The translations under genes were made by a program, and so were the position numbers. From positions 1-64,000 of the forward strand of contig JAUXNQ010000055.1 in NCBI GenBank assembly GCA_030682715.1: a DNA stretch of 64,000 bases, read 5' to 3'. Shown piece after piece: positions 17,608 to 40,044 of this stretch. The number at the start of each line of letters is the position of its first letter. Position 1 is the first letter of the stretch. The notes under the pieces are model-generated. The model saw only the letters and a program-made list of their open reading frames with translations. It was not told where the DNA came from and ran no database searches. Source of the stretch: Methylotenera sp. GTDB taxonomy: Bacteria > Pseudomonadota > Gammaproteobacteria > Burkholderiales > Methylophilaceae.

Positions 17608-19361
17608 TAGTTAGTCGCCATATATGGACCATTGGCCATGTTAATTTTCATGCCAGGCTGATTTGTTTTTAAACTTGAGGTGGCACGTCCATCAGCATCT
17701 ATTTTTACTGTCAGCGTACCGTTTAGCTCTTGGTCTTTACGTGCACGCCATTCGCGTTGAGCCTTATCAGGATCATGGCCAAACAATTTATTAAGCTTTT
17801 CTGTAAAACCCAGCAATGCACTAGCACGCTCTTTGTCTTTGCTGGTATCACCAGCCATTTTAGTTACACCATACATAGCTAATAATGGCGTAGCTCCTAT
17901 TGCGGCAGAGCCAAGTGAGAGCCTGCTGAGCATAGAGGCTGCACCAGCTGTTTTCGCAGCTTTGCCACCAGACCCTTGTGCTGTCGGTAATCCAGTACCC
18001 ATTCCACCTTCACCCATGTTAACGACATAAACTGGAGTTACACCTGCAGCAGTTTCTAGAGCCTTACCTGTTGCAACACCTGCACCCATATTGCCAAATT
18101 TCCCTGCAATAGAGCCTATTGCTTTGCCGCCGTATCTGGTAGCCAATAGTGTGGCGATTGCACCGCCTCCTGCCGCAAGTGCCATGTCGTTGCCATCCAT
18201 GCCAAGACCACCGTCTTTCTTGTCGGCCATCGTGAATTTAATGGCATTAGCAACCGCATTATTAATAGGGCGGGCCCAGCCATCAGCAGCTTCACGGAAT
18301 GCAGTTTTAAGGCGACCAACCTGATCAACAGAGTTGTCGATAGCTTTACTAAGGTCTTTTTCCAGCGTGCCACTTGCATTGGTAATTTCACCTGAAAAAG
18401 CCTTAACTTTATTAAGCATGTCTCCACCAAGTAAAATACGCATACCTTTAATCGTATCTAAGTCAGCATTGCCGAATGCTTTTTGAACGAACAGCGCACG
18501 ACCTCTTTCTGTATTTATTTTGTCATACTGACTTTTGATATCAGCAAGGACTTTAAGTGGATCTCGACGATCACCTTTCTCATCAAAGAACTTAACTCCT
18601 GTAGAGTTCTGAGCATCTTTCATATATTTTAGATTTGTAAAAACGCGCATTGTGCTATCTGCCAAAGTTGCCAAGCGCTCTGGTTGACGCTCAATCTGTG
18701 ATAAGCCCTCAATAAATGCAAGTGTGGTTTCAAAACCAAACCCTGCACTTGCAGCATTAGGGCCGATTCGCCCAAAAATGCTAGAAAGATTCTCAAGTTC
18801 TGCATTGCCTTGGCGACCTGCTACCGTCATTTGATCTAGTAACTTAATTGCAGTATTTGGCTTGGCTAGATCAAATTCAAATGCACTGGCCGCAACCGTT
18901 AAAGCACCCGTTAAAGTTTCAGCTTTGGCACTGGTTACTGCTACGGCTTTATTGGTGGCATCAATTACTGGTAGCGCTTCTTTAAACTTTAACCCAGCTT
19001 GTACAGCATTGTTAAAGCCTTGCTCTAAATCATCAACTGGCTGACCAGTTTCCTTGCTCATGCGAAATAACTCTTTTCGCAAACCAGATACTTCGGCCTC
19101 GCTAGTTCCTGCTGTCTGCCCAATTTGCGTTAATGTTTTATCCATACGAGCAGACTGCATAATGGCCGCTGTGGCACCAATAGTTACGCCTATTGATGCC
19201 AACTTACCTTCAACAGAATTTAACGTGACTTTTAACGCATCAAATTCACGCTTTGCTGTGTTGCTGAATTTACGAACACCGTTTTCACCAGAGGTTAACC
19301 CAGATACAAACCTGGTAGCATCTGCGTAAAGCTTCATAGATAAGGTTAAATCACGGTTCAT
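17607..19361 (-). CDS. phage tail tape measure protein
   Basis: TP901-type N-terminus; QSARMDKTLTQIGQTAGTSEAEVSGLRKELFRMSKETGQPVDDLEQGF. Confidence 0.9.
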   Translation of the reverse strand: MNRDLTLSMKLYADATRFVSGLTSGENGVRKFSNTAKREFDALKVTLNSVEGKLASIGVTIGATAAIMQSARMDKTLTQIGQTAGTSEAEVSGLRKELFRMSKETGQPVDDLEQGFNNAVQAGLKFKEALPVIDATNKAVAVTSAKAETLTGALTVAASAFEFDLAKPNTAIKLLDQMTVAGRQGNAELENLSSIFGRIGPNAASAGFGFETTLAFIEGLSQIERQPERLATLADSTMRVFTNLKYMKDAQNSTGVKFFDEKGDRRDPLKVLADIKSQYDKINTERGRALFVQKAFGNADLDTIKGMRILLGGDMLNKVKAFSGEITNASGTLEKDLSKAIDNSVDQVGRLKTAFREAADGWARPINNAVANAIKFTMADKKDGGLGMDGNDMALAAGGGAIATLLATRYGGKAIGSIAGKFGNMGAGVATGKALETAAGVTPVYVVNMGEGGMGTGLPTAQGSGGKAAKTAGAASMLSRLSLGSAAIGATPLLAMYGVTKMAGDTSKDKERASALLGFTEKLNKLFGHDPDKAQREWRARKDQELNGTLTVKIDADGRATSSLKTNQPGMKINMANGPYMATN

Positions 19362-19815
19362 CTTTTTTCAACGCTTAAGCGGTCCAAGTAATGGTTAAAT
19401 TCATCAACTGGCAAGGCTTTAATTTCACCAATTGACCAGCCCGTTTTAAGAGCGATTAAAAGTATCTTGTCTAAGAGTCCTCTTGATCGCTCGGCACGTC
19501 TTCCCCCAGTAGGTCTACCTCAATCTGTGCGTCACGCAGAACGCGGTAGTTTCTCGTTCCCCAGCTTTTAAGCATGTTAATGGTGAACGGTCCAGTAAAT
19601 GTCGCGCCCTGATCATTGCTGACTTGATTGAGTTGGCGCACCATCATCTGTCCGTTAAAAGCCAGCGGCGTATGTGCGCCACCGCCTGTGCGTGTCAATT
19701 CCATTTCAGCTTCAAACATGTCACCAACTGTGGATTCGCGTATATCAAAATGGGTGTAGTTAACACCCGCAATGGTGATTGGTTTGGCGAATGGCTTCTG
19801 ATTAGATAATGACAT
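19358..19815 (-). CDS. putative tail assembly chaperone, -1 frameshift fusion
   Basis: Continuation ORF in -1 frame (TGGRRAERSRGLLDKILLIALKTGWSIGEIKALPVDEFNHYLDRLSVEKR*) ends at the tape-measure start. Confidence 0.6.
19471..19815 (-). CDS. phage tail assembly protein (Mu gp41-like)
   Basis: KPITIAGVNYTHFDIRESTVGDMFEAEMELTRTGG; position between tube and tape measure. Confidence 0.85.
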   Translation of the reverse strand: MSLSNQKPFAKPITIAGVNYTHFDIRESTVGDMFEAEMELTRTGGGAHTPLAFNGQMMVRQLNQVSNDQGATFTGPFTINMLKSWGTRNYRVLRDAQIEVDLLGEDVPSDQEDS

Positions 19816-19817
19816 GA

Positions 19818-20162
19818 TTAAACCTCTTTAAATGAGCCGTAGAAGGTAGCCTTGATGCCGTCTTTAGATAACTCTGGCACAGGGCCATTAGAGGCATTTG
19901 AAGACACGTAGCTTTTTCCATTGTCAGAATCAAAGGTCATATTGACATTCTTGATCTTTTGAATGTCTGTAATGCTTACATCATCTGACGCAATGAAGGT
20001 GCAATCAACCTGACCAGCTTCATGTTGATATTGCATGCCTGCAAAACCGCTGTCACCAACCACTGGCGAACCAGCTTCACCACCAAGCTTAATGGTTGCC
20101 CCCTCTTTAGTGTTATAGCGTCTACCACCGATAGTGATATACGCGCGTCCGTGAATTGCCAT
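19818..20162 (-). CDS. phage tail tube protein
   Basis: GRAYITIGGRRYNTKEGATIKLGGEAGSPVVGDSGFAGMQYQHEAG. Confidence 0.88.
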   Translation of the reverse strand: MAIHGRAYITIGGRRYNTKEGATIKLGGEAGSPVVGDSGFAGMQYQHEAGQVDCTFIASDDVSITDIQKIKNVNMTFDSDNGKSYVSSNASNGPVPELSKDGIKATFYGSFKEV

Positions 20163-20207
20163 ATTAATGACTCCTTTAAAGTGTATTTATTTGTAAAATG
20201 TGTTGGC

Positions 20208-21689
20208 TTATAAAATGTACTGAACTGCGCCAGCAAATACGTCAAACTGGTTGACCAGATTAGGCGGCAAGATTGCATTAACCCTATTTTTATCAACATC
20301 TGAGCGCACACAAATCAGCTCTTTGATAAACTGATCTAAATCCTCAAGTAATCCAGCTTTCTCTAAGCGCATGGCCGTAGGGATTAATGAATTGTTCACG
20401 ATCAGTTTAGGCGTTGCGATTTTTTGTCCTGGCTGAATACGATCCAGCACATCATCACCAGCTAACTTGTGGTTAGGGAATGTAGCAACCACATCGTAAG
20501 CAAACACAAAGCGCATATAGTCAGCTGTCCACTTGGTGTTCAGCTTAAGCATGCTACGATCTTCCATCCCGAAAGTATTGGTTTGGTAAGTGGTGATTAC
20601 CTGTTCGATGTGGCAATTACCACCTTGATCAAAGGTGACTGTACTGCAACCGTCATGCAACAACAGGTTACGTTCAGCATCAGTAAACTGGTCAGTCTCA
20701 ACTGGTGCCATTACATCAGGCAAATACAGCCCTTTGAATGGTAGCGCTGGGTCAATCGCACCACGGAACTCAACAGCACCTGCAAACTGGGCGACATTCA
20801 CCCAAGGTAAAGATGGGCAACCTTTTAGACCTAAGAATGAAGACTGCTTGCTATTGCGCGCGCTGCCGTAGGTTGAAAGTGCGCTATAGCTACCTGATCT
20901 GTAGGTAAACACATGGCCTTGCTTCATGTTCATACCGCTAAAGCGTAGCTCTAACTCCGCTTCCATCAGCGCCATGTTTGCTGGGTCGCTCCAAGGCATC
21001 ACAATCGTGTATGGCGCAATGTTGCTCATTGCCGTGATTGCTGCAGTCACATCAGGGTTGCCAGTGCCACCAGCCATAGCACCAATGGCAACAGTAATGC
21101 CTTTAGGTGTAGCTTCACCAGGGTAATAGTTAACACGCAGATCAATACCGTTGCCTTCAATGCCTTTGTGGCGTGAAGTTGGTGTTACAACACCAGCAGC
21201 ACTTGCTGCGGTCACGGCACCATCAAGATCAGCATTGATTGAAGCAGCTATTGCCGCTGCAATCTGCGTCGGTGTTTGTGCTGCAGTTATGCCAACTGGC
21301 ACTGAGCGGCCACCAACACGCAGATACAAGGTGCCTGATTCAGTTGGCGTGCCTGTAATGGTGATTGTGCCTGCAGCAGCTACGCCAGCCTCTAAATCAT
21401 CTAATGCTAGGCCATAAAGCTGAGTGTACGGGTTTACTTTAAGTATGGCGGCAATCATTTGTGCGCCCATTGATCCACGGCCATAATAATTAACGCCATC
21501 TTCCTTACGCGTAATTTTTGACAGTGCGCCAGCTTGTACCGTACCAGTGCTCAAACGTTGGCAGAGCACCAACATTTTATGTGACACAGCAGGTAAGCCA
21601 CGAATTGCACGGCTATGGTCAATCTCAATCTTTGCGCCTGGTACTAGCCAGTCTTCAGGAATACTTAAAAAGGTAATGTTGTCTGCCAC
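20208..21689 (-). CDS. phage tail sheath protein
   Basis: Mu-L-like; PYTIVMPWSDPANMALMEAEL, ELICVRSDVDKNRVNAILPPNLVNQF. Confidence 0.92.
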   Translation of the reverse strand: MADNITFLSIPEDWLVPGAKIEIDHSRAIRGLPAVSHKMLVLCQRLSTGTVQAGALSKITRKEDGVNYYGRGSMGAQMIAAILKVNPYTQLYGLALDDLEAGVAAAGTITITGTPTESGTLYLRVGGRSVPVGITAAQTPTQIAAAIAASINADLDGAVTAASAAGVVTPTSRHKGIEGNGIDLRVNYYPGEATPKGITVAIGAMAGGTGNPDVTAAITAMSNIAPYTIVMPWSDPANMALMEAELELRFSGMNMKQGHVFTYRSGSYSALSTYGSARNSKQSSFLGLKGCPSLPWVNVAQFAGAVEFRGAIDPALPFKGLYLPDVMAPVETDQFTDAERNLLLHDGCSTVTFDQGGNCHIEQVITTYQTNTFGMEDRSMLKLNTKWTADYMRFVFAYDVVATFPNHKLAGDDVLDRIQPGQKIATPKLIVNNSLIPTAMRLEKAGLLEDLDQFIKELICVRSDVDKNRVNAILPPNLVNQFDVFAGAVQYIL

Positions 21690-21714
21690 GGTGTTCTCCT
21701 AATTGATGCGCGGA

Positions 21715-21906
21715 TTAAGCGCCTTTTGTTTTTGGTTCAGTAGGCAACTTGTCTGTTAGTGTCACGTCGCCATCTTTCTCGCGGCGCGCCCAATAGGTAC
21801 TGTGAATCACAGTGTCGCCACCTTCTGGTAAGTAGGTACCATTTTCTTTACGAATCTTTAACCCTGATTTTGGTGTTACAAATACTGGTTGATGTAGCTT
21901 TGCCAT
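21715..21906 (-). CDS. DUF2635 phage protein
   Basis: VFVTPKSGLKIRKENGTYLPEGGDTVIHSTYWARREKDGDV. Confidence 0.85.
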   Translation of the reverse strand: MAKLHQPVFVTPKSGLKIRKENGTYLPEGGDTVIHSTYWARREKDGDVTLTDKLPTEPKTKGA

Positions 21907-21909
21907 GTC

Positions 21910-22506
21910 TTACTCCTGTAAGGTTATGTTGTCGGTTAAGTCTGGTTTGCTGGTGCTATGGTCAGGCGGCTCTTGGCTCCATTTGGTATGCTCGGCAGCA
22001 CTGGCATGCGGTTCAATGTCGTATTGAGCATTGAAGGTAATAAAGTCATCTAAACCCGCTGGATCAATACTCGGTGGCAATGTCGCTTGCCCTTGCAGGG
22101 TGATCACAGCAACCTGCAAACCTGCTTTGTAAATCTTTTCATCATTCATAATACTGATGCTGCTTGCATATAGCGTCACACCGCCTGCTTTATATCCGTC
22201 CAGGAGCGCGGCTACAGTTTCAGCAATCTGGTACATGCCAATCATCTTGCCGTCACCCTTACGAGTTGCTGCTTGGCCACCTGCATTTCTGGCAACACAT
22301 GCAATGCCAAAGCCCACGTTCACTATTGAGTCCTTGATAGCAAAGCTTGCAGCTGGTGCAACGTAAACTGCGGGGGCGTCAGTGGCAAACTTGCTCACCA
22401 GTGAATCACCATCAAGATCAGGCAACGTGCCTATTTGCTTTAGTTTCTTAGCGATAGGCGACTTATTAATCTCAGCGACTAATGCGTTTTCAACTTCAGT
22501 TAGCAT
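21910..22506 (-). CDS. Mu gp37-like phage protein
   Basis: Position upstream of sheath; LTEVENALVAEINKSPIAKKLKQIGTLPDLDGD. Confidence 0.75.
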   Translation of the reverse strand: MLTEVENALVAEINKSPIAKKLKQIGTLPDLDGDSLVSKFATDAPAVYVAPAASFAIKDSIVNVGFGIACVARNAGGQAATRKGDGKMIGMYQIAETVAALLDGYKAGGVTLYASSISIMNDEKIYKAGLQVAVITLQGQATLPPSIDPAGLDDFITFNAQYDIEPHASAAEHTKWSQEPPDHSTSKPDLTDNITLQE

Positions 22507-22951
22507 GGTTGATCATTCCATTAATACGAGCTTGCAATGCGTCCAGCATGTCTAACTCATCGGCGCTTGAAATACCAATAAATGCACGCGCAACTAGGTT
22601 TACTCTACGGATAGCACGTCCTGCATAACCGCCAAACTGGTGGATGGCTGCATAAATTCTGTTAGAACCCCACTCAGCAAACTTGCTGTTTGATAAGTGC
22701 GTGATAGAGTCGCCAAGGTGGCCATCTTTGGTTAAAGTCTTACCGCCGTTAATCTGCACACGGATGCTTTTTTTCCAGCGATTGCCTTCAGGATCAATCT
22801 GTGTTGCAAATCTCTCACGTGTAGTGTTCTCGCCGATCACTGCAATGTCTTCCATCGCGGCGGCAGGGTTACGGCCTAACGCGATGAGTTGAGTAATCGT
22901 TGCGCGTATCTTGCGATCATCTTGCTCAACCTTGAATTTGAAGCCGCTCAT
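22496..22951 (-). CDS. phage virion morphogenesis protein (gpG-like)
   Basis: IAVIGENTTRERFATQIDPEGNRWKKS. Confidence 0.88.
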   Translation of the reverse strand: MSGFKFKVEQDDRKIRATITQLIALGRNPAAAMEDIAVIGENTTRERFATQIDPEGNRWKKSIRVQINGGKTLTKDGHLGDSITHLSNSKFAEWGSNRIYAAIHQFGGYAGRAIRRVNLVARAFIGISSADELDMLDALQARINGMINHAN

Positions 22952-23451
22952 TAGATAAAGCCCCCATCCTGACGGCTAAACACACGGCCATTTGATACCA
23001 GTTGCGCGCCATCATTAGCTTTTGGTTTATTGCCGTCACTATCAATACCAAGGCTTATCTCACCCTTGCTGATTGATTTAAGCAGCTTTAATGCATCTGC
23101 ATTTCGGTTTGATATGGCCTCTGTTGCCATGTCGTCATAAAGTGCGTACCTGGTTAAATCACAGGTAATTGTCATGACTAGGCGCGGCACTGTAACGAGT
23201 GGCACTGAATATCTGCCAGAGAGAAAGCCATTAACTGTGCTTTCTGCATCGAGCAGCTTGCTGTTAATTAAACTGAGCGCAGCCGCTACTGCTGCCTGTT
23301 CGTCTACTGTATAGCCAGACAAGTCTTCACCTGTAGCTGCAGCAGTGAGTAGCTCTGGTGTGATTAAACGAGGCAATCCACGATCACTGCGCTGGGCAAT
23401 CTCTTCAGCACCAAACTGGGTGATCATGTTAGTAGCGGTTACGTAAGTCAT
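22951..23451 (-). CDS. DUF1320 phage protein
   Basis: YVTATNMITQFGAEEIAQRSDRG...CDLTRYALYDD. Confidence 0.88.
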   Translation of the reverse strand: MTYVTATNMITQFGAEEIAQRSDRGLPRLITPELLTAAATGEDLSGYTVDEQAAVAAALSLINSKLLDAESTVNGFLSGRYSVPLVTVPRLVMTITCDLTRYALYDDMATEAISNRNADALKLLKSISKGEISLGIDSDGNKPKANDGAQLVSNGRVFSRQDGGFI

Positions 23452-23453
23452 GA

Positions 23454-23723
23454 TTATTCAGCGGCCACTTCAATTTCAACTTCAGATACAGCCAGCAAAC
23501 GTTCATCCTTGATTTGCTTGATTTGCTCTTTAGTTAGGTCTTCAATTTTTAAAACAACAGCATCACGACCAAAAACATGGCCACCACGACGAAAGCCTTC
23601 ACGCGCTGAAACCACTTGTAAAGCTTTAACCTTTTTCGCTTGAGCTTTAGGTGCAGTCTTAGCATCATCTTGTTTTTTGGTAGCAGCTGCATCAGCTCCC
23701 TTGTTTTCATTTGTTGATGACAT
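23454..23723 (-). CDS. small Mu-like head-region protein
   Basis: Lys/Ala-rich N-terminus; VVSAREGFRRGGHVFGRDAVVLKIEDLTKEQIKQIKDERLLAVSEVE. Confidence 0.7.
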   Translation of the reverse strand: MSSTNENKGADAAATKKQDDAKTAPKAQAKKVKALQVVSAREGFRRGGHVFGRDAVVLKIEDLTKEQIKQIKDERLLAVSEVEIEVAAE

Positions 23724-23787
23724 TTATATCTCCTTATAGGTTTGTTGTTTAAAGGCCATCTATGAAATGGCCTTAGTTCAAGTTAAA

Positions 23788-24825
23788 TTAAGCTACTGTG
23801 CCGTCTGAGCCAAAAGCCAGTTGCCAGAAACCGTAGCCAAAAGCGGCACGCGCTTCAGCACCGAACTTAAATTTCTTACGGCTAAATACGTCATCAGATT
23901 GCGCGTCTGTTTGTTCAACAAACACAGGTGACTTACGGTCCTGAAAGACAAACGGTTTTACAGGTTTGGTTGTATCTAGCAGGAACCAAGCTGTATCTGA
24001 AGTGATACGCGCATCAACCACAACGGTCGCCGTATTTTTGTAAGGGTTAGGCTTGCCATCTTCAAGCTTATCGTTCGTCATTAGGGCATTCGCCGTATCT
24101 TCTAGCGCAGGCCCCACCAACAATACGTTTGGAGTAACATTCAATGGTCGGCCTTCGTCATCCTTAAATTTCTTCATGGCTGTACGATATGCACCGTAGC
24201 TGGCTTGCGCTGCTGCCAATGTTGAAATTGACAACACCTTGGTGCCTTTATTTGAAACGCTGGCACCTGCAACTGTATGATCAGTGTCAAAGAAGTATTG
24301 CCCGTCATAGCATGCTGTTGTAAAGCCTAAATTCACTACCTCCAAGATACCTTCATCAGGCATCTGTTTGGCTGACCATCCTGCCATTTCAGCCTGTGGC
24401 CCATAAATACCAAGCGTGTCATCCTCAATATCGTTACGGTCAACTTCTACCGTGGCTTCAAAGTCATCGTTGACTAGCGTATATTTAGCAGCTTCAAGCG
24501 ATTTGACTTGCTTATCACCAATCCATTTACGCATTTTTGGAAAGTTTGATAACCATGCATAGTCATTTTGTCCAGTTGTTGATGGCACACGCATGGCAAT
24601 CTTTTGCCAAACCGAAGGGGCAGCTGCAAAGGCGTTATTGAAGGTTGTTTTCAAACTGATAAAAACATTGCCGATGGTTTCTTTATTAACCAACATACCG
24701 AGCATGCCACCGCCAGCCATTACAGATTCTGGGCTCATGTCAGCTGCATATGCAGGCAGACCAAACATCCCCACCATTGCGGCGGCTGCCCCAATGGTTA
24801 AGAATAAGATTTTTGATTTGTTCAT
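23788..24825 (-). CDS. Mu gpT-like major head subunit
   Basis: LKTTFNNAFAAAPSVWQKIAMRVPSTTGQNDYAWLSNFPKMRKWIGDK. Confidence 0.93.
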   Translation of the reverse strand: MNKSKILFLTIGAAAAMVGMFGLPAYAADMSPESVMAGGGMLGMLVNKETIGNVFISLKTTFNNAFAAAPSVWQKIAMRVPSTTGQNDYAWLSNFPKMRKWIGDKQVKSLEAAKYTLVNDDFEATVEVDRNDIEDDTLGIYGPQAEMAGWSAKQMPDEGILEVVNLGFTTACYDGQYFFDTDHTVAGASVSNKGTKVLSISTLAAAQASYGAYRTAMKKFKDDEGRPLNVTPNVLLVGPALEDTANALMTNDKLEDGKPNPYKNTATVVVDARITSDTAWFLLDTTKPVKPFVFQDRKSPVFVEQTDAQSDDVFSRKKFKFGAEARAAFGYGFWQLAFGSDGTVA

Positions 24826-24888
24826 TGTGTTCTCCTGTTGTTTATTTGAACGTTATAACTAAAAAAACTGTGTTAAAAATGTGATTGG

Positions 24889-25287
24889 TTACTCGACCCA
24901 GATGCCGTCTGCATCCACCTGAATAACCTTGCCTGCAGCCGAACGAGTGTTGCCACCATTTGTTTTAGCTACTGTTTGGTCATCGACGATGTAGCAAGTA
25001 GCCCCTAGGTCTGCCTGTACAACTGCATCAGCTGCATGGTTAAGCCATTTGAAAGCTTTGCCTCGACGAACTAAAACACTCTTGTCACCAGCAGCGCCAG
25101 CAGTGTTATTCACTTGCTCTTCAGCACGGCCAAAGTATTTAAGTGTTGTGGCCACTGCACCAGGTGTTGCAAAACCTGCTGCGTTAATCGCGACCAGTGA
25201 GCCTGCATAAACCTTTACTGCAGCAAGTGGTACTGATACAAGCTCACCATCTTTCAATGGGGTGTTGCGGTCATTTGTTAGTGCCAT
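24889..25287 (-). CDS. capsid-associated protein (DUF2190-like)
   Basis: Between protease and major head; LKDGELVSVPLAAVKVYAGSLVAINAAGFATPGA. Confidence 0.75.
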   Translation of the reverse strand: MALTNDRNTPLKDGELVSVPLAAVKVYAGSLVAINAAGFATPGAVATTLKYFGRAEEQVNNTAGAAGDKSVLVRRGKAFKWLNHAADAVVQADLGATCYIVDDQTVAKTNGGNTRSAAGKVIQVDADGIWVE

Positions 25288-25350
25288 TTCTTTCTCCTAG
25301 AAAGCCTCATTTACATGAGGTGTTAATGTGTGAATCTTTAAACTTGGTTA

Positions 25351-26466
25351 TTAAGCAGAAGCCTGCAAAGTTTTCTTGTAGTCTTCAGGGGATACGCCCA
25401 TTTGTTTGCAAACTGCTAATTGGGACTCGGTAAGGTCGGTAATGCCGTCACCTTCTGGAATATTGCCGCCTGTCTGTGTGGCGGTTAACGCTACAATAGG
25501 CTGAGCCGTAGCAATATAAGAACGTAACGCGGCAATGTCACTTTCACCCAAACTACGCGCCCAAGCCTCTTGCGTTGGTAATAAACGGCTATCAGACAAA
25601 GCGACAGTGACCAGATCATTCACTTCATCTTCGTTAATCTTTTTGTTAAGCGCTGCGAGCTGAGTCTGTAAATCTTGCATCACTGTTACTGGCACAAACT
25701 TAGCAGGGTCTGGCGTAGCAACCTGTGCGGTTAGGCTTGCGATTGATTGATGTTGAGCACTCAAGTGAGCGATAAGGTTAAAGCTTGCCGCTGCTGTAGC
25801 GTTTTCAGCCTTGATCAGATCAACCGCTTTGTTGACTTCAACCAAAATGTCATCAGTGGTTGCCAAAGTTGGCAGGTTAAACATCCAGCGCAAGCGCTCT
25901 AGTAAAGCTTCTAAGTCCATTGTTAAACTCTCCGTGTGTGTTAAAAGTTGTGAAGCAGCCGTAATGGTCGCTTCGCTCATGCCATCTAAAGCAGGACTGT
26001 TGGTGACTGCACCAAGTAGGATTTTTTGTACTGCGCCTGTTGTTTTGCTGTAAGCAAATACAGGTGAGAAGTAGAGGTATTCTTTTGCTTCAATATGCGC
26101 TTGTGCTGTGGCTGTCCATTCAACATCAGTTGCGAACAGACCTTCACCTTCCCGCCACTCAACGGTTTTAAACCAACCAGCAGCAGGCGCTGGCTTGCCG
26201 TTATCTTTGGATAAAAGTGTTTGATGTTCGTAGTCGATGACTATGCGGTTTTTACGTGCAGATAAATCTGCAATGAGAACGGCTGCGATTGCAGCGTCAA
26301 TAAACCAAAAGTCAACCTCGGTAGGGCGGCCATCTACTGACCTGAACTCACCAGCGGGGAATAGTTGAAGCTCTGCCGTTGCAGTAAGGGTAAAGCTACA
26401 AGCTACGATTGCAGCATCTGTTTTCTTGAGTTGTTTTGATTTTTGTTTCATGTCGCCCATTTTCAT
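25351..26466 (-). CDS. phage protease (Mu gpI-like)
   Basis: ELQLFPAGEFRSVDGRP...IVIDYEHQTLLSKDNGKPAPAAGWFK. Start may be the internal ATG at 26451. Confidence 0.9.
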   Translation of the reverse strand: MKMGDMKQKSKQLKKTDAAIVACSFTLTATAELQLFPAGEFRSVDGRPTEVDFWFIDAAIAAVLIADLSARKNRIVIDYEHQTLLSKDNGKPAPAAGWFKTVEWREGEGLFATDVEWTATAQAHIEAKEYLYFSPVFAYSKTTGAVQKILLGAVTNSPALDGMSEATITAASQLLTHTESLTMDLEALLERLRWMFNLPTLATTDDILVEVNKAVDLIKAENATAAASFNLIAHLSAQHQSIASLTAQVATPDPAKFVPVTVMQDLQTQLAALNKKINEDEVNDLVTVALSDSRLLPTQEAWARSLGESDIAALRSYIATAQPIVALTATQTGGNIPEGDGITDLTESQLAVCKQMGVSPEDYKKTLQASA

Positions 26467-26488
26467 GGAGCGAGGGGGTTGGTGCGAT

Positions 26489-26504
26489 ACTGAGGAGCTT
26501 CAGT
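26489..26504. promoter_or_regulatory. dyad motif copy 2
   Basis: ACTGAGGAGCTTCAGT upstream of protease gene. Confidence 0.65.
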
Positions 26505-26773
26505 AGTGAGGTGGCAGGGGTGATTGCGTTGCCACTTTTAAAGATTACCTGCTATAAAAAAACTAGGCAACCATTAATTTATTAAAAACCGCCTTCTATT
26601 TGTGATAAATATACCGCCTAGAATAGCGTTAAACCCCCGTTAAAAACGATTAACTATTTTTTTGCTAGTGAATGCCGCTTGAAACATTAAAATACAGCCT
26701 AATCGGCGTTTAAAAACTTTGCTTGATTTAATATTTTGCTATTTGTTAACAGAAGGCTTAAACTTGACAGCAA

Positions 26774-26877
26774 GCAGGTGCGACACGGTGATATTCTCCC
26801 GGCCGTAACACAGCAGTGATGCTGGAGTGCTATGTGGGGTTTCCGCTTTAAGCGGACTGGGAGGCCCCACCACCTGC
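26774..26877. other. nested inverted-repeat structure directly after the F-like gene
   Basis: Outer arms gcaggtg/cacctgc, inner gtgggg/ccccac and CCGCTTTAAGCGG hairpin. Confidence 0.6.
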
Positions 26878-26880
26878 GTT

Positions 26881-28041
26881 TTATTTATTCAGTAGCCTCT
26901 TAATCTCCCTATCACGCTTTACTTGGTCACTTGATAAGCGTCTGAAGCTAGTCATAAACACAGCTTTACCTGTGCCTGTTGTTTTAACAACAGTGACATA
27001 ACCATCCAGCTCCAACAAATAGATCAGTGAATTCCCATCTTGGATTCTAATTCCACGTTCAATTGCCTGCTGCACAAAGGCATATTCTTCAACTGCCAAC
27101 TCAGGGTGTACTCTCAGTTGCTTCTGCATGGTTTCAGCAGATAGCCTAACAGTGTGCGTCTTCGCACCGATGGCCGCTGCATCGTCATCACTAATTACGC
27201 CTATCGGGAACAAGCCTTTTGGTGCTGCAAAATATTGCGCAAAAGACTCACCCTGCAAGAGCGACTTGAGCGTGCTTGCAGCCAATGCTACGTTCACAGC
27301 ATCAAGCTTATCGGTGATGTATTTTGGTAGGTTAGCTAGCCTGCCACCTGGTGGGTAATTGAACGAAGGGTGTACGCCTTTAGGCACTTGCATCACTTCA
27401 CCAGTGCGTTTGTTTGTGTAGTTTACTTTTGGCACTACTGGCGCTTCAGACACTTTCAAACCCCGCCGCTCTAGCATGGCCGCATTCATCTGACGCACGC
27501 GGCATTTGCAGCCATATTCTTTCACTGGCATGTGCGATAGCCAGAATGGGTCATCGGCAGGCAGCACCATGCCATCCCATGAGGAATGCACTAGGCGCGG
27601 GTGTTCGCTATTGTTGCCGTCATATTGCAGATATGGGAATGCAGCCTTTGCATTTTGAATGCGCTCCCATTGCCCCTCGCTGTGTGCAGTGCGTAAGTTG
27701 GTGTCGTAAATCGTTTTAAGCCTACGAGTACTGCCCAGCTGCACGTTCTTTATCTCGCCAGTTTGCGGGTCTTCCATGTCAGCTTTACCCCACCAGCCTT
27801 TTTGCACCAGTATCGGTTTTAGCTGCTTGCGAAAATCACTAAACGGCGTGCCATCTGACAGCGCTGCATCAACAGCCTTGCGGATATCTTCCAGCAAGTC
27901 TATCTGCATGGCCTTGGCCACGGTGAAGGCGGCTTGGTGCTCTTGCTGCCACACATCCTCCCAAGCAAAGCCGATCAAATATCCTTTTTGCCTAAAGTAT
28001 TCAATGGCCTCTTTAGGCGGCAGTGATTTTAGCTCAAACAT
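26881..28041 (-). CDS. Mu gpF-like head morphogenesis protein
   Basis: LRTAHSEGQWERIQ...HPSFNYPPGG motif. Confidence 0.93.
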   Translation of the reverse strand: MFELKSLPPKEAIEYFRQKGYLIGFAWEDVWQQEHQAAFTVAKAMQIDLLEDIRKAVDAALSDGTPFSDFRKQLKPILVQKGWWGKADMEDPQTGEIKNVQLGSTRRLKTIYDTNLRTAHSEGQWERIQNAKAAFPYLQYDGNNSEHPRLVHSSWDGMVLPADDPFWLSHMPVKEYGCKCRVRQMNAAMLERRGLKVSEAPVVPKVNYTNKRTGEVMQVPKGVHPSFNYPPGGRLANLPKYITDKLDAVNVALAASTLKSLLQGESFAQYFAAPKGLFPIGVISDDDAAAIGAKTHTVRLSAETMQKQLRVHPELAVEEYAFVQQAIERGIRIQDGNSLIYLLELDGYVTVVKTTGTGKAVFMTSFRRLSSDQVKRDREIKRLLNK

Positions 28042-29600
28042 TATTCAGCGCTTGGGCCATTAACACGCCCCCAAATGCTTGCAGCAAATTGACCTTGCGT
28101 TAACGCCTCTGTCACAAGGCTAATATCCATGCCTGCAATAAGGCTTGGTAGCTTTGCTGTAAATTCTTCATATGATTCTACAGAAGCAGCAAGGGCGGCA
28201 ATTGGCTCAATAAGTGGGTTTGTTACACGCTCCCAATCGCTGGACATCTCCTCACCTAGTAGATCAAACTCATCTTGGTCTAAGTTGGCTGTAGCCGCAA
28301 CGATACGTGTTGCAGCTACCTCATTAGTTTGTCCTGGCACTTCTTTTTTTGCAGGCTGCAGTACTGCTTCACCTTCTTTTGGTAGCGGTATTCCAAGCTT
28401 CTCATGCGCCCAATTAACAGGCACTTGCACGCCAATGGCAACCAGTGGAGGCAACGCGTCAGAGTAGGTTTTAATATCTTCAGGCTCGCGCAGATCAAAC
28501 TGCCACTTAGGCATGCGGCGTGCGTCTTCTATGCCGCCAAGGTTAAGCGCAATCAATGGGTAAACAATATCCCTGCTGAGCGTACCAGCAAGCTGCATCG
28601 CGTCTGACATCATCAAGTCATGGCGCACCTCATTATGTACATTACCTAGTGCATTGGTGCTGCTCTTGCCATCAGCCTGACTGGTAAGTGTGCCGCCTAA
28701 AATAGCTTTGCTTTGGGTCCGTTCGCACCAATCAATCATTGCTTGAAATGGATCGTGAGAGCCTTTGGCCGCATCTTTAAAATCAATCTCCATGCCATCA
28801 GGAATAATGCCAGCTGCATCATGGCCAATAGCCAATACAGCACGTAGTAGTGTGGCTTTCTCATCATCGCCTGAGCCGCTTGGATATTTGCCCAAGCGTA
28901 GTGGCAAACCATAAATCTCAAGGAACTCTGCAAGATCTCGCACGCTGTAGTTTTTAAACAGGTATGGCCAAGCTAATACACGGTGTAATCCAGACCTAGC
29001 AAGATAGCCAGACTTAGCTTTGTGGATATGCTTAACCCAGCCGAACGGTTGCAGTGCTTGGCCGTTCATTGAGTTATCACGTAAGCGAAGCTCGGTGCGT
29101 GTTTCGTTATCGGTTTTAAACCAGCTTTGTGGTCTGTGCGTTATTTCTTTTGGTAGCCATGTGCGGCCAAGCAACTGCCACTCAATTTCTTGGCATGAGA
29201 AACCGTGCCCAATAGCATCAAGCGCATCAAGGATCACGTCTTCAATATTGGCAATATCCATCACCAGCTCTTTAGCTTCAGCTGCGATCTTCTTTTCTTT
29301 AGCACTTGGGTTACGTGGCGGCACTATGTCCCAGCTAATCTTCAATAAAGCACGCTTACGCTTGCTCATCTCAGAAAAGATATGGCCGTCTTTTTCTTCC
29401 ATATCTAAAAACAGATCATGCTGCGCACGAATATCACCTTGCTCTGCATTCTCCATAATTCTGGCAAGTTTTATGGGCGTTAAACCACGGCTTGGGTGGC
29501 CTGCAAACTCATGATGTAAACCGCCAACTTTGGCGGTCTGTGATTCTTTTAACTCCAGCTTTTTAATGGGCTGCCCGTGTTGATCTAGTATCGCTACCAT
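28041..29600 (-). CDS. DUF935 portal protein (Mu gp29-like)
   Basis: PTRGLTPIKLARI-type N-terminus; SCQEIEWQLLGRTWLPKEITHRPQSWF. Confidence 0.93.
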   Translation of the reverse strand: MVAILDQHGQPIKKLELKESQTAKVGGLHHEFAGHPSRGLTPIKLARIMENAEQGDIRAQHDLFLDMEEKDGHIFSEMSKRKRALLKISWDIVPPRNPSAKEKKIAAEAKELVMDIANIEDVILDALDAIGHGFSCQEIEWQLLGRTWLPKEITHRPQSWFKTDNETRTELRLRDNSMNGQALQPFGWVKHIHKAKSGYLARSGLHRVLAWPYLFKNYSVRDLAEFLEIYGLPLRLGKYPSGSGDDEKATLLRAVLAIGHDAAGIIPDGMEIDFKDAAKGSHDPFQAMIDWCERTQSKAILGGTLTSQADGKSSTNALGNVHNEVRHDLMMSDAMQLAGTLSRDIVYPLIALNLGGIEDARRMPKWQFDLREPEDIKTYSDALPPLVAIGVQVPVNWAHEKLGIPLPKEGEAVLQPAKKEVPGQTNEVAATRIVAATANLDQDEFDLLGEEMSSDWERVTNPLIEPIAALAASVESYEEFTAKLPSLIAGMDISLVTEALTQGQFAASIWGRVNGPSAE

Positions 29601-31219
29601 GCGCCACCTCCTGTTGATTCTCTATTTGATTTACCTGCGCCTTGATAGGAAATGCCACCCGATCCACTTAGTGCTGTTACCCATAGCATGTGCAATGCGT
29701 CAGGGCCATCGTCATGGTCTGCTTTTGGAAAGTGTCTGAGTTGATCCAATAGCGTTTTATGATCAGGGCTGATTTTAATGAGGCCATTAGCCATATGCGG
29801 CTGCAGTGTTTCGATGCGTAGTAGTTTGTCCGTGATAGGTTGCACTGCTCGTGCAGGCACTGGCACACCCAATGCAGCACTCCGCTTGATTAACTCTGTA
29901 CGCAAGAACTCCTGAAACTGCACGGTTTCCACGCTCCAAACTACGCACTTGTAAATACGCTGCAGCTCAATGACGTCGCTAATGATTCTATCTGGCAAGC
30001 GCTTTTTGATATCAGCTCGCACGACATACAAAATACCAGTGTTACGCTGATATCCACCTACCAACAATGCAGATGGGTCACGGCTAGCGCCATTTTTACC
30101 AAGTGAAGGATCCACCGCACCAAAGTAAATTAGATCAGGAGGTAATTCCGCATATAGTGCATTATTGATGCATTCGGCAAAGGGTGCATCATCACCACTT
30201 ACTGGGTCGTTCTGTTGCTCACTATCAAATGCGGCACGGCCATCACGCGCACGCTTTACCATCAAGGTGTATAACGGTTGCCCTTGTGGCCAACATACAA
30301 CAGCACCACTATTCATTTCCACCATGTTTTGCTGATAGAAGCGTTTTGCTAGATCTTCGCCATCATGTAATAGGGCATCTTCCCACTTGTCCCACAGCTG
30401 CATATTGTCTGGCCAGCGGATAATTGCGCGGAATGTTTTAGCTCGCCATAGTGGATTTTTAAGCAGGCGTGCCAGTAATGAGTCGTAATGTAATACCGTG
30501 CCAATAACAACAACATCCATGCTGTCATCAGCAGCTCCCAAGCTTAATACTGTCTTCTTTAGCCAGCTTTCTAGCTTGTCACGTTGGTCTGGGTTACGTA
30601 CATTCTCATCATTCTCAAGATCATCACCAATCGCTAAGTCTGGCCGATACGCGCCATGCCGCAAACCACGCATGCGCTTGCCAGAGCCAAACACCTGCAC
30701 TTTGACATCATTGTCTGTGATAATGGTACCTACTTGCCAAAGCCTGCCCCTACCTGTTGCTTGAGGATAATCCATTGCTAAACGAGGGTTAAATTCAAGT
30801 TCAGCTTTAATCGCTTCTAGCATAATAGCTGCTTGGTCAAACGCATCCATGATAATGACTGGGTAATGCTTGCGACCTGTGACAATGCACCAGATTGTAA
30901 ATATCTGCGTGACGATAGTCGATTTTGCATTACCACGTGGAGCCGCAATCGCATCATGGTCTCCAGTGCCATTGTCTACAATATCGACCAGGCGTGAGTA
31001 TAGGTAATTGTGCAACTCAGCATTGTCATGCTTGATGTAGTGTGGGAAATATGTGCGAGCAAACACCTCAAGGCTATCTTTTGCTTTTGCAATACGCTCA
31101 GCCATTGCCTTGCTATCACTAGAAAAGCCATCTACCTCTGCCTCAATACGGCTACGCAGACTTGCAATAAGGCCTGCGTACTGTTTGCTAAATTCGCGCG
31201 TAGTAATCTGGTTATCCAT
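29594..31219 (-). CDS. phage terminase large subunit (Mu gp28-like)
   Basis: APRGNAKSTIVTQIF, FGAVDPSLGKNGASRDPSALLVGG. Confidence 0.93.
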   Translation of the reverse strand: MDNQITTREFSKQYAGLIASLRSRIEAEVDGFSSDSKAMAERIAKAKDSLEVFARTYFPHYIKHDNAELHNYLYSRLVDIVDNGTGDHDAIAAPRGNAKSTIVTQIFTIWCIVTGRKHYPVIIMDAFDQAAIMLEAIKAELEFNPRLAMDYPQATGRGRLWQVGTIITDNDVKVQVFGSGKRMRGLRHGAYRPDLAIGDDLENDENVRNPDQRDKLESWLKKTVLSLGAADDSMDVVVIGTVLHYDSLLARLLKNPLWRAKTFRAIIRWPDNMQLWDKWEDALLHDGEDLAKRFYQQNMVEMNSGAVVCWPQGQPLYTLMVKRARDGRAAFDSEQQNDPVSGDDAPFAECINNALYAELPPDLIYFGAVDPSLGKNGASRDPSALLVGGYQRNTGILYVVRADIKKRLPDRIISDVIELQRIYKCVVWSVETVQFQEFLRTELIKRSAALGVPVPARAVQPITDKLLRIETLQPHMANGLIKISPDHKTLLDQLRHFPKADHDDGPDALHMLWVTALSGSGGISYQGAGKSNRESTGGGAW

Positions 31220-31712
31220 ACTTTACCCGCAACTCTGGCTCAAACTGCTCAAGTGCTTTAAGCAATATGCCACCAGCCTCTTGATGATGCTCTGCAACAA
31301 AGTTTGCAAAATCACCAACTACTTCTAGCGCAATACTTAGCCGAGCCAGTTTAGGTGCACCACGTGCTGCACCTGACATTGTTTTATGATAAGCATCTGA
31401 CAGTCTGCTCAATGCCTCAGCTTTACTTAAAGCAGGAATATCTTCCTTAGTGCTAAGGTCGGTGACAATAGAGTTATATAGCGTTACAAATGTACTAAGC
31501 ATAGCCTGTGTCACAGCCTCGGTGCCAGCGCCTGCCATGTGGCTTGCTGCACGGGCTTTTTCCCAATCATCACCACTGGCTAGTGCATCACGCTTCCATC
31601 GGCTTGCTGTGCCAAATGCTACGCCAATTTTTGTGGCGGCAGCTTCTAGGCTTAAGGCCTGGTGTACAAAAGCGGCACGTAAATCATTGCGATGCTCAAT
31701 TCCGTAAGCCAT
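31212..31712 (-). CDS. DUF1804 protein (terminase small subunit-like)
   Basis: FVHQALSLEAAATKIGVAFGTASRWKRDALASGDDWEKARAASHMAG. Confidence 0.9.
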   Translation of the reverse strand: MAYGIEHRNDLRAAFVHQALSLEAAATKIGVAFGTASRWKRDALASGDDWEKARAASHMAGAGTEAVTQAMLSTFVTLYNSIVTDLSTKEDIPALSKAEALSRLSDAYHKTMSGAARGAPKLARLSIALEVVGDFANFVAEHHQEAGGILLKALEQFEPELRVKYG

Positions 31713-31945
31713 TAACGCATTCCAGTCACTGCTTTTAATTTCTCAATGGCAATGGCCATGCCAATACTGATAATGCCGCCAGAGATAGCACCGTTTAACG
31801 CGGCTTTGTTTTCCACCTTGCGCAGTCTTTCATCTAATCCATCAAGCTTTTTTTCAAAGGTTTCTTTTTGGTCTGCTTGGCCGTCAATCACTAGATCAAG
31901 CTTTCCTTTGATCTCACCCAGCAAACGACTCTCATCGGAATTCAT
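31712..31945 (-). CDS. small coiled-coil plus TM phage protein
   Basis: KKLDGLDERLRKVENKAALNGAISGGIISIGMAIAIEKL. Confidence 0.65.
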   Translation of the reverse strand: MNSDESRLLGEIKGKLDLVIDGQADQKETFEKKLDGLDERLRKVENKAALNGAISGGIISIGMAIAIEKLKAVTGMR

Positions 31946-31964
31946 TATTGTTTTTCTCCATTAT

Positions 31965-32192
31965 TCAAGGCAGGCGCCCGTACTGTTCATTAAAGGCCTT
32001 ACACTCTGTACAAAGCCGCACACCAGGGTAGGCAATCCTTCGTGCCTCTGGTATTACTTCACCACAACTAGGGTTAACACAGAATTTGGCAGAGGGCAGA
32101 TTTCCTGCATTTTTGACTCTTGCCCTAACCGTATTAATGCCGCTGTCTCTCTCAGACTCTTCAAGTATCTGCGCTTGATCAGTAGGTAGCAT
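31965..32192 (-). CDS. TraR/DksA-like C4 zinc finger protein
   Basis: CVNPSCGEVIPEARRIAYPGVRLCTECKAFNEQ. Confidence 0.88.
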   Translation of the reverse strand: MLPTDQAQILEESERDSGINTVRARVKNAGNLPSAKFCVNPSCGEVIPEARRIAYPGVRLCTECKAFNEQYGRLP

Positions 32193-32801
32193 TTACCACC
32201 TCGCCCAAACGCCAGCACCTACAAAGTAGTCAGGGTCAATTGTGCTATTGATGGGTTGATCAACCGTACCGACCACGCCAAAATGCAGAGCTTTTACCTG
32301 AAACATGCCTTGTTTAACTTCTAACCTTGCAGCTGGCTGGCCGTTTTTAATTCCCATATATAAGCCAGCCTCGCCACGTGAATCTAATGCAAGCCAAGGT
32401 AATGGGTCGCGCTTAACAAACGTTTGGCTTTCACCAGTGTCTGTGTTGATGAGTGTGGTAATCGTTTGAGGGTGGTCATCAGCAGGCACTTGATTAGATG
32501 CAATGACATCTAAAGCAGGGTTGTCCTGGATAGCTTCAGGGAGCTTGATGGATTTTTTAACGGTGGCTGGGTAAACTTTAACGGCCTTAGCCTTAATTGG
32601 CTTATCAACAACAGCCACCTTTTTTACTTCAGGTGCTGGTGTGGCCACTATGTTTAAACCCACTGGTGGAGTAGGCTGCGGAACTTTATATCCCTGCATA
32701 ATTGAACTGAAAATTAAGCCAATAATTACCATGCAAGCTATTACAACAATCGCACCCTTAATAAGGGTTGCATTCTCTTTCCAAACCTTAGCCAATTGCA
32801 T
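32193..32801 (-). CDS. hypothetical membrane-anchored phage protein
   Basis: N-terminal TM, periplasmic-like C-terminus; next to endolysin. Confidence 0.55.
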   Translation of the reverse strand: MQLAKVWKENATLIKGAIVVIACMVIIGLIFSSIMQGYKVPQPTPPVGLNIVATPAPEVKKVAVVDKPIKAKAVKVYPATVKKSIKLPEAIQDNPALDVIASNQVPADDHPQTITTLINTDTGESQTFVKRDPLPWLALDSRGEAGLYMGIKNGQPAARLEVKQGMFQVKALHFGVVGTVDQPINSTIDPDYFVGAGVWARW

Positions 32802-33315
32802 GTTGGCCTCCGTTCACTGGTGAAATAGGCGTTAAGCACATGGCGCGTTCGGCTTGGCGGCGCTTGGTCAGTCCATACACTGGCACAAGCTGGCCGTTAA
32901 CCCTCGCTTTGTTATAGGCCAGTATGCGATTACACGCACCTGCGTAATCCCCATCATTTAGCAGATCAATAAGGAACTTGTTTTTTGGTAATCCAGATTT
33001 GCAGAAGTTTCCAGAGCCAACGTTATAGGTAAGCGAGACAAACGCATTGTATTGATTTTGGTTAAGCGGCACTTTTACGCAGGCCAGTACAGCCTTGCCG
33101 TGTGCCGTTAGCTCTTGCTTAAGCAGGGCATCACACTCCGCCTTGCCGTAGGTTTTGTCTTTGATAATGTCTGCGCCAGTGTAGCCATTACATACAGTAA
33201 GTACGCCAGCAATGTCACGATATGGCTTTAGCTCTGTGCCTTCCCACCCACTCACAAATGCGAGTGCAGATGCACTGGTTAAGCCTGCTAATAGAATTTT
33301 GTAAGATGCTCTCAT
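32788..33315 (-). CDS. phage endolysin (GH24), SAR-like N-terminus
   Basis: LAGLTSASALAFVSGWEGTELKPYRDIAGVLTVCNGYTG catalytic E; start MRASYKILL preferred over the 33354 GTG. Confidence 0.9.
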   Translation of the reverse strand: MRASYKILLAGLTSASALAFVSGWEGTELKPYRDIAGVLTVCNGYTGADIIKDKTYGKAECDALLKQELTAHGKAVLACVKVPLNQNQYNAFVSLTYNVGSGNFCKSGLPKNKFLIDLLNDGDYAGACNRILAYNKARVNGQLVPVYGLTKRRQAERAMCLTPISPVNGGQHAIG

Positions 33316-33352
33316 GTAACCGATGGTATGGCATGAGGCTTTTGATTGCGCC

Positions 33353-33368
33353 ACTGAACCGCTTCAGT
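33353..33368. promoter_or_regulatory. dyad motif copy 3
   Basis: ACTGAACCGCTTCAGT upstream of endolysin gene. Confidence 0.65.
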
Positions 33369-33466
33369 AAGCAAAAAGGGGCGCTGTAAAGCACCCCTTT
33401 TTTAAACTACGCTTGTTTTATTTTACTGTCAATTACCTTTTAAGAAGCCAAAATTCGCAGCAATTA

Positions 33467-33703
33467 TTAAATCTCATCTTGCATACGGTTGTATTGTTCT
33501 TCATTAATTTCAATAGCAAAAACGACAACAGTATCAGCACCAGGACATTTAGAGTCAGTTTGAAGTAACCAGTCGGCAGGATGCATATCTGTGACTTTAT
33601 TTGCCATCTTGTACTGATGACCTGTGTTCTGTTGATATGTGATAAGCCAATACATATTACTCTCCATAAGTGCTTTTTCTATATCTTGAATGTCTTTCAA
33701 CAT
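33467..33703 (-). CDS. hypothetical protein
   Basis: ORF in phage transcription direction. Confidence 0.45.
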   Translation of the reverse strand: MLKDIQDIEKALMESNMYWLITYQQNTGHQYKMANKVTDMHPADWLLQTDSKCPGADTVVVFAIEINEEQYNRMQDEI

Positions 33704-33706
33704 ACC

Positions 33707-34222
33707 CTATTTGTCAACAGATGTGAATTTTAGCCCTGTCTTTTCATTAAACCAGACCGTGCTTTTGGCTCCATTATTTTTCTCTGCAATAAACTGTTCC
33801 ATCTTGCCATTTATAGCATCAGCCATCACTGACCATCCTATTGAGCCTTCAACAGCTTTAATGCGCTCAGTTTTTAGGTGACTGCCGTTATAGAAAATCA
33901 TTTCTTTTAAATATTGGCATGGGTTTGTACATTCAAGCACATCAAAAGCACCCATATTATTCTTTGTATAAACTTGATAAACCCCATCTTTTACACCAGC
34001 ATATTTAAACATTATTAAGGTAGATGCAACTTGACCAGCATTTACAGAGTCATTACTTAGGCCTTGTTCATAACCATACTCATAGCCATCGTTCATACTG
34101 TAATAATGATCAACCACTGGCTCTGATGGAGCAATCTCTGCATTTTGCTCTGATGTAGACTTACCACCATCTCCACAGCCAACCAAACCACACATCATCA
34201 ATGCCAACACTAGCTTTTTCAT
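33707..34222 (-). CDS. hypothetical lipoprotein
   Basis: MKKLVLALMMCGLVGCGDGG lipobox. Confidence 0.6.
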   Translation of the reverse strand: MKKLVLALMMCGLVGCGDGGKSTSEQNAEIAPSEPVVDHYYSMNDGYEYGYEQGLSNDSVNAGQVASTLIMFKYAGVKDGVYQVYTKNNMGAFDVLECTNPCQYLKEMIFYNGSHLKTERIKAVEGSIGWSVMADAINGKMEQFIAEKNNGAKSTVWFNEKTGLKFTSVDK

Positions 34223-34250
34223 ACTTCCCCCCTTTAAAAGAACTATCATA

Positions 34251-34661
34251 CTAAAACAACTGAGTCTGTCCGTCATCCATTTCGGTTTTTTTGAGGATAT
34301 TCCATATCTGACGATCACTCAAACTATGTTCACGGGCAAGGCTCTCAACGACCTCGCCGTCACTAAACCGTTTAACAATCTCACGATCTCTTTTTAGGCG
34401 CAGGCCATCTGCACAACGTGGAATATACACATAGCGGCTGGCACCAATCGCATTAATTAATTGGTGCAGCTTCTCTTTGCCAATCACCTTTGCAAACTCA
34501 TGGTCATCTGTTGCATTGCGCATAGCTGGCAAGCGTTGCGTAGTGCCACCATACGCATTAATAAGCGCAATAGTGGTTGATTCCCCAATCACCGCCACAA
34601 CCTCATCCAGTGAAGGTGGCAGCTTGATTGAGCATTGGTAGTTTTCAATTGCTTTAACCAT
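34251..34661 (-). CDS. mor: Mor/C-family transcriptional activator
   Basis: GGTTQRLP...CADGLRLKRDREIVKRFSDGEVVESLAREHSLSDRQIWNILKK. Confidence 0.88.
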   Translation of the reverse strand: MVKAIENYQCSIKLPPSLDEVVAVIGESTTIALINAYGGTTQRLPAMRNATDDHEFAKVIGKEKLHQLINAIGASRYVYIPRCADGLRLKRDREIVKRFSDGEVVESLAREHSLSDRQIWNILKKTEMDDGQTQLF

Positions 34662-35076
34662 TATTTGCCTTTGGGTGGTTTTTTTGTTTGTTGACTAGCG
34701 CCACAATAATGCCGCGTAGTTCGGCTGGTTTGCACCACTGAAGCTTGGCACGTTTGTACATTTGGTTTGCAATGCCGTCTGCATATGCCCAACTCAGGCC
34801 CATGTCTGCCAGCAATGCACCAATCTTGCCAATCAATGCTTGCTTGGCTTTGGCTACGTCTGGCGCGGAAGTTTTACTCTGCCAACCACGAGCTTTCATG
34901 TGGGCAAGTACTGCATCTCTGCCAGCTTGATCTAATTCACTACTGCTTTTTACACGAGCAACCGTAAACAGCATGCTACGGTAGGTTTCATCATCAAGGC
35001 CAAGCTGCTTCTTAGCGATGTGGATCTTCGCTAGCTCGCTAGTACGACTAGTGTTTTTATCTTGATTTTTCATATT
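34654..35076 (-). CDS. gemA: GemA-like regulatory protein (DUF1018)
   Basis: ELAKIHIAKKQLGLDDETYRSMLFTVARVKSSSELDQAGRDAVLAHMKARGW. Confidence 0.9.
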   Translation of the reverse strand, partial: NMKNQDKNTSRTSELAKIHIAKKQLGLDDETYRSMLFTVARVKSSSELDQAGRDAVLAHMKARGWQSKTSAPDVAKAKQALIGKIGALLADMGLSWAYADGIANQMYKRAKLQWCKPAELRGIIVALVNKQKNHPKANNG

Positions 35077-35335
35077 ATGGTTGCCCAATGGATCCACTTG
35101 TATCCCTATCTAAACCTGATGCGATAGGGTTGGTAACCTCAAATTCGTTACTGGATGCTCCGAATTTATTTGACCACCAATCGACCTTAACCCAATATCC
35201 TTCTTTAGTTCCATGACCAACAATCACACCGTAGTCATCCTTATTTGCATATAAACAAGCTGGATGATTTTCGTCAGCGCCATCTGTCAAAGTCTTTGTA
35301 AAAACAATTCGCGTGCCAATTGGTAATAGTTCACT
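35075..35335 (-). CDS. hypothetical protein
   Basis: ORF in phage early/middle region; start MSELLPIGTR. Confidence 0.45.
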   Translation of the reverse strand, partial: SELLPIGTRIVFTKTLTDGADENHPACLYANKDDYGVIVGHGTKEGYWVKVDWWSNKFGASSNEFEVTNPIASGLDRDTSGSIGQP

Positions 35336-35959: not shown

Positions 35960-36023
35960 ATTAATTTCCGTTAAATCGTCTTACTTAGGCCGCCGTTTTA
36001 ACGGCCTAAAGATGAAAATCTAA

Positions 36024-37410: not shown

Positions 37411-37426
37411 TGTTTGTTTCTCCTGG

Positions 37427-40043: not shown

Positions 40044-40044
40044 G

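Follow-up and report, generated by a model that had tools for sequence, protein, structure and literature searches.

What lies at the centre of a Mu-like prophage, between the gene for its F-like (MuF) minor head protein and that for its head maturation protease, and what might it do there? The prophage considered here forms part of the window, by which we mean the whole stretch of DNA that was analysed (64,000 nucleotides of a Methylotenera sp. contig), and its limits can be read directly: the termini are TG...CA at 8111 and 44932, TTTGGCACT repeats are found inside both ends and a 5-bp CCTAT duplication (8106–8110 and 44933–44937) flanks the whole. The protein families recognised are transposase, B, portal, F, I and T, with F encoded downstream of a Mu-type portal gene (Portal_Mu). 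Between the start of gene I at 26466 and the end of F at 26881, both on the minus strand, there is a gap of 414 bp (26467–26880) that holds no ORF of 60 or more amino acids. The original prediction had described this as the largest noncoding gap of the late region and placed the prophage midpoint within it, and both points hold, the prophage ends having been verified and the midpoint being 26521.5. It had gone further and proposed the gap as a strong gyrase site (SGS) of the Mu type. This has support for part of the gap only: the gap as a whole is not one site, its F-proximal third being a structured RNA, not noticed in that prediction, that is tied to the C-terminal domain (CTD) of F. The CTAGGC/GCCTAG repeats to which attention had also been drawn are indeed present, once each (26563–26568 and 26616–26621), but are not conserved in relatives and were rejected as a feature for that reason.

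Alignment of the gap with seven relatives from IMG/VR (loci are given by L numbers) separates its two sides. The I-proximal part is common to the window, L002 and L003–L006, whilst the F-proximal part is found, among these relatives, only in the window and L002. The F proteins of the window and L002 also carry a C-terminal extension of ~125 amino acids; L003–L006 have neither the extension nor the F-proximal part. The gap contains two separate conserved elements, one of RNA (element A) and one of DNA (element B), whose positions are given in Table 1. Comparison of the gap or of RNA A with annotated phages and plasmids at the level of DNA similarity returned nothing convincing. Mu carries gene G between F and I; the window has no gene G there (26467–28041), and a weakly G-like protein is encoded at 22496–22951 and is by position more like Mu gp37.

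Table 1 Positions in the window of the prophage, its two central genes and the elements that lie in and beside the gap
Feature	Position	Strand	Evidence or remark
Mu-like prophage	8111..44932	.	36,822 bp; left (transposase) end is 44932; ends read from sequence
Gene I, head maturation protease	25351..26466	-	PF10123, E 4.7e-109
Conserved leader of gene I	26467..26535	-	Alignment of relatives
Element B, conserved noncoding segment with apparent helical phasing of AT/GC; candidate SGS	26546..26750	.	
Most conserved heart of element B, AATCGTTTTTAACGGGGGTTTAACGC	26626..26651	-	Pattern in 6 IMG/VR contigs
Element A, structured RNA of class 1	26766..26883	-	131 bits with covariance model R1
F-like (MuF) minor head protein, 386 aa	26881..28041	-	PF04233, E 2.5e-15; phrog_220, E 7e-91
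CTD of F (~residues 260–386), predicted PBECR-like endoRNase	26884..27264	-	

Element A starts at the F stop codon and folds into a closing helix (P1) with internal hairpins. It recurs immediately at the F stop codon, 84–93% identical, in phages whose F proteins share only ~40% identity; the closing helix of L016 (Desulfovibrionaceae) differs in sequence, with its pairing kept. The covariance model R1, built from seven sequences, scores 41–135 bits in 69 loci (~70 phage contigs), which were mostly retrieved by DNA pattern and include nearly all IMG/VR contigs with a short conserved motif. Across 67 distinct sequences, standard pairs make up 92% of the paired cells, compared with 32–51% when the structure is slid by one to three columns, and the covariation score is 0.363, compared with at most 0.084 for slid structures and 0.124 for shuffled ones. 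Both sides have changed in eight of the nine pairs of the closing helix. A long-range CUCCC/GGGAG helix, which would compete with parts of the modelled hairpins, is nearly invariant and shows two paired C–G to G–C changes; the loops are highly conserved. On the F strand G–U cells outnumber A–C cells (189 vs 78), which fits an RNA of that strand. Searches of Rfam 15 with the window's element A and nine other RNA loci gave no match or chance matches only, a tRNA scan of ten MuF loci found no tRNA at the RNA positions, and fold-energy z-scores for the 130 nt after F separated the groups too weakly. Element A is a previously uncatalogued structured RNA, absent from Rfam.

The CTD of F is predicted to be a PBECR-type RNase on the basis of its residues, its fold and weak profile and Foldseek matches. 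PBECR domains are predicted endoRNases, some of them MuF-fused, with an active site of His plus Ser/Thr (PMC5512222). Six residues (S, K, H, Y, K and S) are invariant in 24 sequences of the CTD family and all are intact in the window, as S43, K49, H54, Y62, K95 and S107 in the numbering of a 128-aa model. H54 comes directly after helix 44–53 and S107 lies in strand 103–110, the arrangement seen in PBECR RNases, where the conserved His is found at the N-terminal helix and the Ser/Thr in one of the late strands. The AlphaFold model of the CTD has a pLDDT of 95, and its top Foldseek matches among solved structures are RelE/HigB, at a weak level (best E 0.03). PBECR3 of Pfam is matched, also weakly, by seven of the 24 CTD homologues (best E 3.8e-5), a Pfam scan of the window CTD alone giving no match. 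The PBECR domain of Mu's own MuF has been called inactive (PMC5512222); the Mu stretch contains no match to the class-1 RNA with R1.

In nearly all of the 69 RNA loci the gene upstream of the RNA encodes a MuF protein with this same CTD, usually ending no more than ~55 nt away. Three scans with profiles of the MuF core (CTD and RNA excluded, the seed cores coming from RNA-bearing loci) identified 227 distinct loci, 212 of them with enough sequence past F to score. Class-1 RNA was found behind 24 of the 54 F genes with the CTD and behind none of the other 158 (73 short, 72 with other tails and 13 with weak matches), a difference whose p-value (Fisher 5e-17), like the others of this survey, overstates independence because the loci are mutually related. 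All 24 CTDs with class-1 RNA keep the active-site pattern, two of them with one substitution. By contrast, no RNA was recognised behind the nine CTDs with a degenerate active site (e.g. L209, with S to N, L118, L165, L212 and L216), and at several of these loci the next gene begins at the F stop codon. By R1 alone, class-1 RNA accompanies 24 of 45 intact CTDs and none of nine degenerate ones (p 0.003), a split that was judged after the data had been seen and that counts as intact five CTDs with no clear His at the H54 column (L170, L342, L357, L176 and L356). L067 and L088 have class-1 RNA with other CTD types, and in L038, L099 and L105, which are fragments, the RNA has no F nearby. In a comparison of distances, RNA and CTD show a weak partial correlation given the MuF core (0.25, p 0.004; core 0.16), which linkage alone could explain.

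What of the 21 remaining CTDs without clear decay? Nineteen of them are followed by a structured RNA, either a diverged form of class 1 or one of classes 2–4, which were recognised by eye and post hoc. A diverged class-1 RNA is in place behind three (L176, L356 and L360), class 3 behind nine, class 2 behind four and class 4 behind three; no RNA was recognised behind the CTDs of L127 and L139 (S to T). Compensatory changes are seen in two of these classes, with eight of 16 pairs doubly changed in class 2 (four sequences) and 13 of 26 in class 3 (eight sequences). Class 3 RNAs mostly have two potentially kissing hairpin loops, GCCTGG/CCAGGC, and end in ...GGGAGA.TTTGCCG. An RNA of any class is present behind 43 of 45 CTDs without clear decay and behind none of the nine degenerate ones, a comparison that is descriptive only, because the classes were assigned by eye with the data already in view and a clear His at the H54 column is lacking from five of the CTDs. 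In L285 an apparent second, different class-3-like RNA follows the first, from ~3850. Separately, L163, L171 and L183 carry a tRNA-like element on the opposite strand directly after F genes with a Mu-type C-terminal domain; it has a 7-bp acceptor, a T loop (TTCRAGT), a D loop and a shortened anticodon arm, and was not called by ARAGORN.

Some copies of the RNA lie elsewhere than at the F stop codon. The F protein of L088 ends in a different tail, yet 281 nt further on a remnant of the old CTD (DREIRRLMEKG) still precedes a class-1 RNA, and by analogy with polymorphic toxins, in which such cases are known, this looks like a replaced toxin with its leftover immunity. In L062, F and the RNA are separated by a DNA adenine methylase-like gene; a homologue of this methylase is encoded at 8441–9241 of the window, at the right end of the prophage. 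For class-1 RNAs in the genomes sampled, the surrounding 1.5 kb lack such a CTD in about half of cases or more. Chromosomal examples are L110, L111, L114, L366, L368, L369, L370, L371, L372 and L375 (RNA near position 1501 of each locus). The neighbours of stand-alone RNAs, named from our own reading of their translations, include recombinases, a PIN-domain gene, an antirepressor and, directly upstream, a ferredoxin-like gene, the RNA lying directly behind the last of these in L371 and L375. Downstream of the stand-alone RNA in L372, at ~2000–2700, there are regular short repeats that read in frame as LRLAPSHQTAKI and are probably a CRISPR array.

Element B, on the other side of the gap, is kept in L002, L004, L005, L036 and partly L031, that is, in five or six related phages, and its 26-nt heart is exact or nearly so in six contigs. 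In the window this heart lies 49.7% of the way from the left end of the prophage, the central location that is a feature of Mu-type SGSs. In L036 it lies at 19929–19954 of a 38,245-bp contig whose portal protein is 26% identical, whose neighbouring genes are mostly unrelated and in which no homologue of the window's gene I was found. We scanned the whole prophage in 120-nt windows for G+C periodicity of 10.2–11 bp. The strongest periodic window is 26596–26715 (at 26656), with a score of 2.75, a value attained in 28 of 1000 shuffled versions of the gap. In L002, L003, L005 and L036, too, periodicity within the locus peaks at the equivalent of B, and in L031 it peaks in the corresponding gap. 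The score is not specific: it places the SGS of Mu itself only 11th in Mu (99.5th percentile). The conserved periodic core of B is centred at ~26640–26656, ~120 bp off the exact midpoint. What stands of the proposed gyrase site is this segment, central, upstream of gene I, with a core conserved as far as L036 and with the highest periodicity, and the balance of this sequence evidence favours element B as a candidate SGS.

How might the two elements work? Our preferred model, in which we have a little better than even confidence, is that A inhibits a virion-borne MuF RNase and that B recruits gyrase. From their positions F and A presumably share the transcript of the late operon, in which RNA A, of ~110 nt, would fold right behind the F stop codon. 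The CTD, a predicted endoribonuclease that probably travels in the virion and enters the cell with the phage DNA, would be bound by RNA A as it is made and would so be kept inactive in the virion-producing cell and in any cell that holds the RNA; perhaps the CTD trims RNA A first, as ToxN trims ToxI (PMC5086642). On entering a new host the RNase would arrive without RNA A and could cut host or defence RNAs. RNA A would in this way act like a type III RNA antitoxin, or as the RNA 'immunity' of a MuF polymorphic toxin. Element B, for its part, would recruit gyrase at the prophage centre and help to bring the ends together, as Mu's SGS does.

The main rival casts RNA A not as an inhibitor but as part of a ribonucleoprotein effector, in which it would activate or target the MuF RNase as its cofactor, its guide or a partner packaged with it. 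Such a role would predict much of the same tie to the CTD and to an intact active site, and would suit the high conservation of the loops, but copies in chromosomes and mobile elements with no nuclease nearby look like immunity, as does the RNA left over in L088 after replacement of the CTD, and we consider it unlikely. Somewhat less likely still is a cis-acting element of the late operon, controlling translation of gene G or I or the processing or stability of the mRNA. In nearly all loci the RNA does have F on one side and the next late gene, often gpG, on the other. However, none of the 158 scored F genes without the CTD is followed by it, similar as the genes of their operons are, and it is retained whether gene I comes next, as in the window, or gpG, as elsewhere, behind the inserted methylase gene of L062 and in chromosomes away from late genes. 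That element A should be a mobile palindromic or MITE-like DNA insertion and not an RNA at all seems very improbable: copies do occur in phages and chromosomes of many lineages, but the host genome has just one, and the compensatory changes, the excess of G–U over A–C on the F strand and the fixed position at the F stop codon all argue for an RNA.

The inhibitor reading of A leaves the role of B to be weighed separately. It is quite possible, if on the lower side of even, that B serves gene I alone, as a conserved promoter, leader or spacer, that its periodicity is incidental and that the prophage has no central gyrase site. B immediately precedes gene I, and the leader of that gene is conserved too; its periodicity score is attained in 28 of 1000 shuffled gaps; and the majority of other strong gyrase sites did not work when tried in Mu (PMC10052514). 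Against a role confined to gene I, L036 keeps the core of B mid-genome with no homologue of this gene I found, and against incidental periodicity, the peak recurs at B in four relatives and, in L031, in the gap that corresponds.

Phages commonly have MuF proteins in their heads, and little has been established about what the C-terminal domains of these proteins do; an RNA partner that vanishes with decay of the active site makes both the RNase function and its control directly testable. If A does act as proposed, RNA immunity joins the world of polymorphic toxins with a new RNA family absent from Rfam, and the stand-alone chromosomal RNAs would be suggested to protect cells from injected phage RNases. 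A broader proposal, to which we give slightly less than even weight, is that virion-borne MuF RNases form a large toxin family with immunity conferred by structured RNAs, of which there would be at least four classes tracking RNase subfamilies, lost with active-site decay, left behind when the toxin is replaced and, as stand-alone chromosomal copies, protective against phages. With element B, the model of a central gyrase site could be examined in a natural setting other than Mu.

Several known systems invite comparison. Like the SGS of Mu, which lies between genes G and I, element B is central, noncoding and upstream of gene I, with AT/GC content that may be helically phased, but it has no detectable sequence similarity to Mu's site and the window, unlike Mu, does not have gpG between F and I. 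F and RNA A resemble the type III toxin–antitoxin systems (ToxIN, CptIN and TenpIN) in that a predicted endoRNase stands beside a structured RNA, presumably on one transcript, and in that the RNA and RNase families stay paired. In type III systems, however, tandem RNA repeats lie upstream of the toxin gene with a terminator between, whereas A is single-copy and downstream of F, no terminator was found between F and RNA A, and the RNase forms part of a head protein of the virion. Because the tandem repeats and the upstream position are missing, we do not rank RNA A as a member of type III but only as working like one. AbiF and its ncRNA RCd22 provide a phage-borne toxin neutralised by direct binding of a structured RNA (PMC12373285), but the toxin family (Abi_2/AbiD/F) and the RNA are unrelated to those described here, and two RNA motifs lie upstream of a toxin that is not virion-borne (PMC12373285). 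The closest known counterparts of the CTD are the MuF-fused PBECR domains (PMC5512222), with which it shares the His plus Ser/Thr active-site pattern, the fusion to MuF and weak matches to PBECR3; we found no mention of an associated RNA in that account and no description of a MuF-linked RNA in the papers searched. The overall layout is that of the MuF polymorphic toxins, in which a MuF head protein encoded beside a portal gene carries a C-terminal effector domain (PMC5576092), and in the window too the MuF and portal genes are neighbours. In those toxins the next gene is usually a small ORF for a putative immunity protein (PMC5576092); here its place is taken by a structured RNA.
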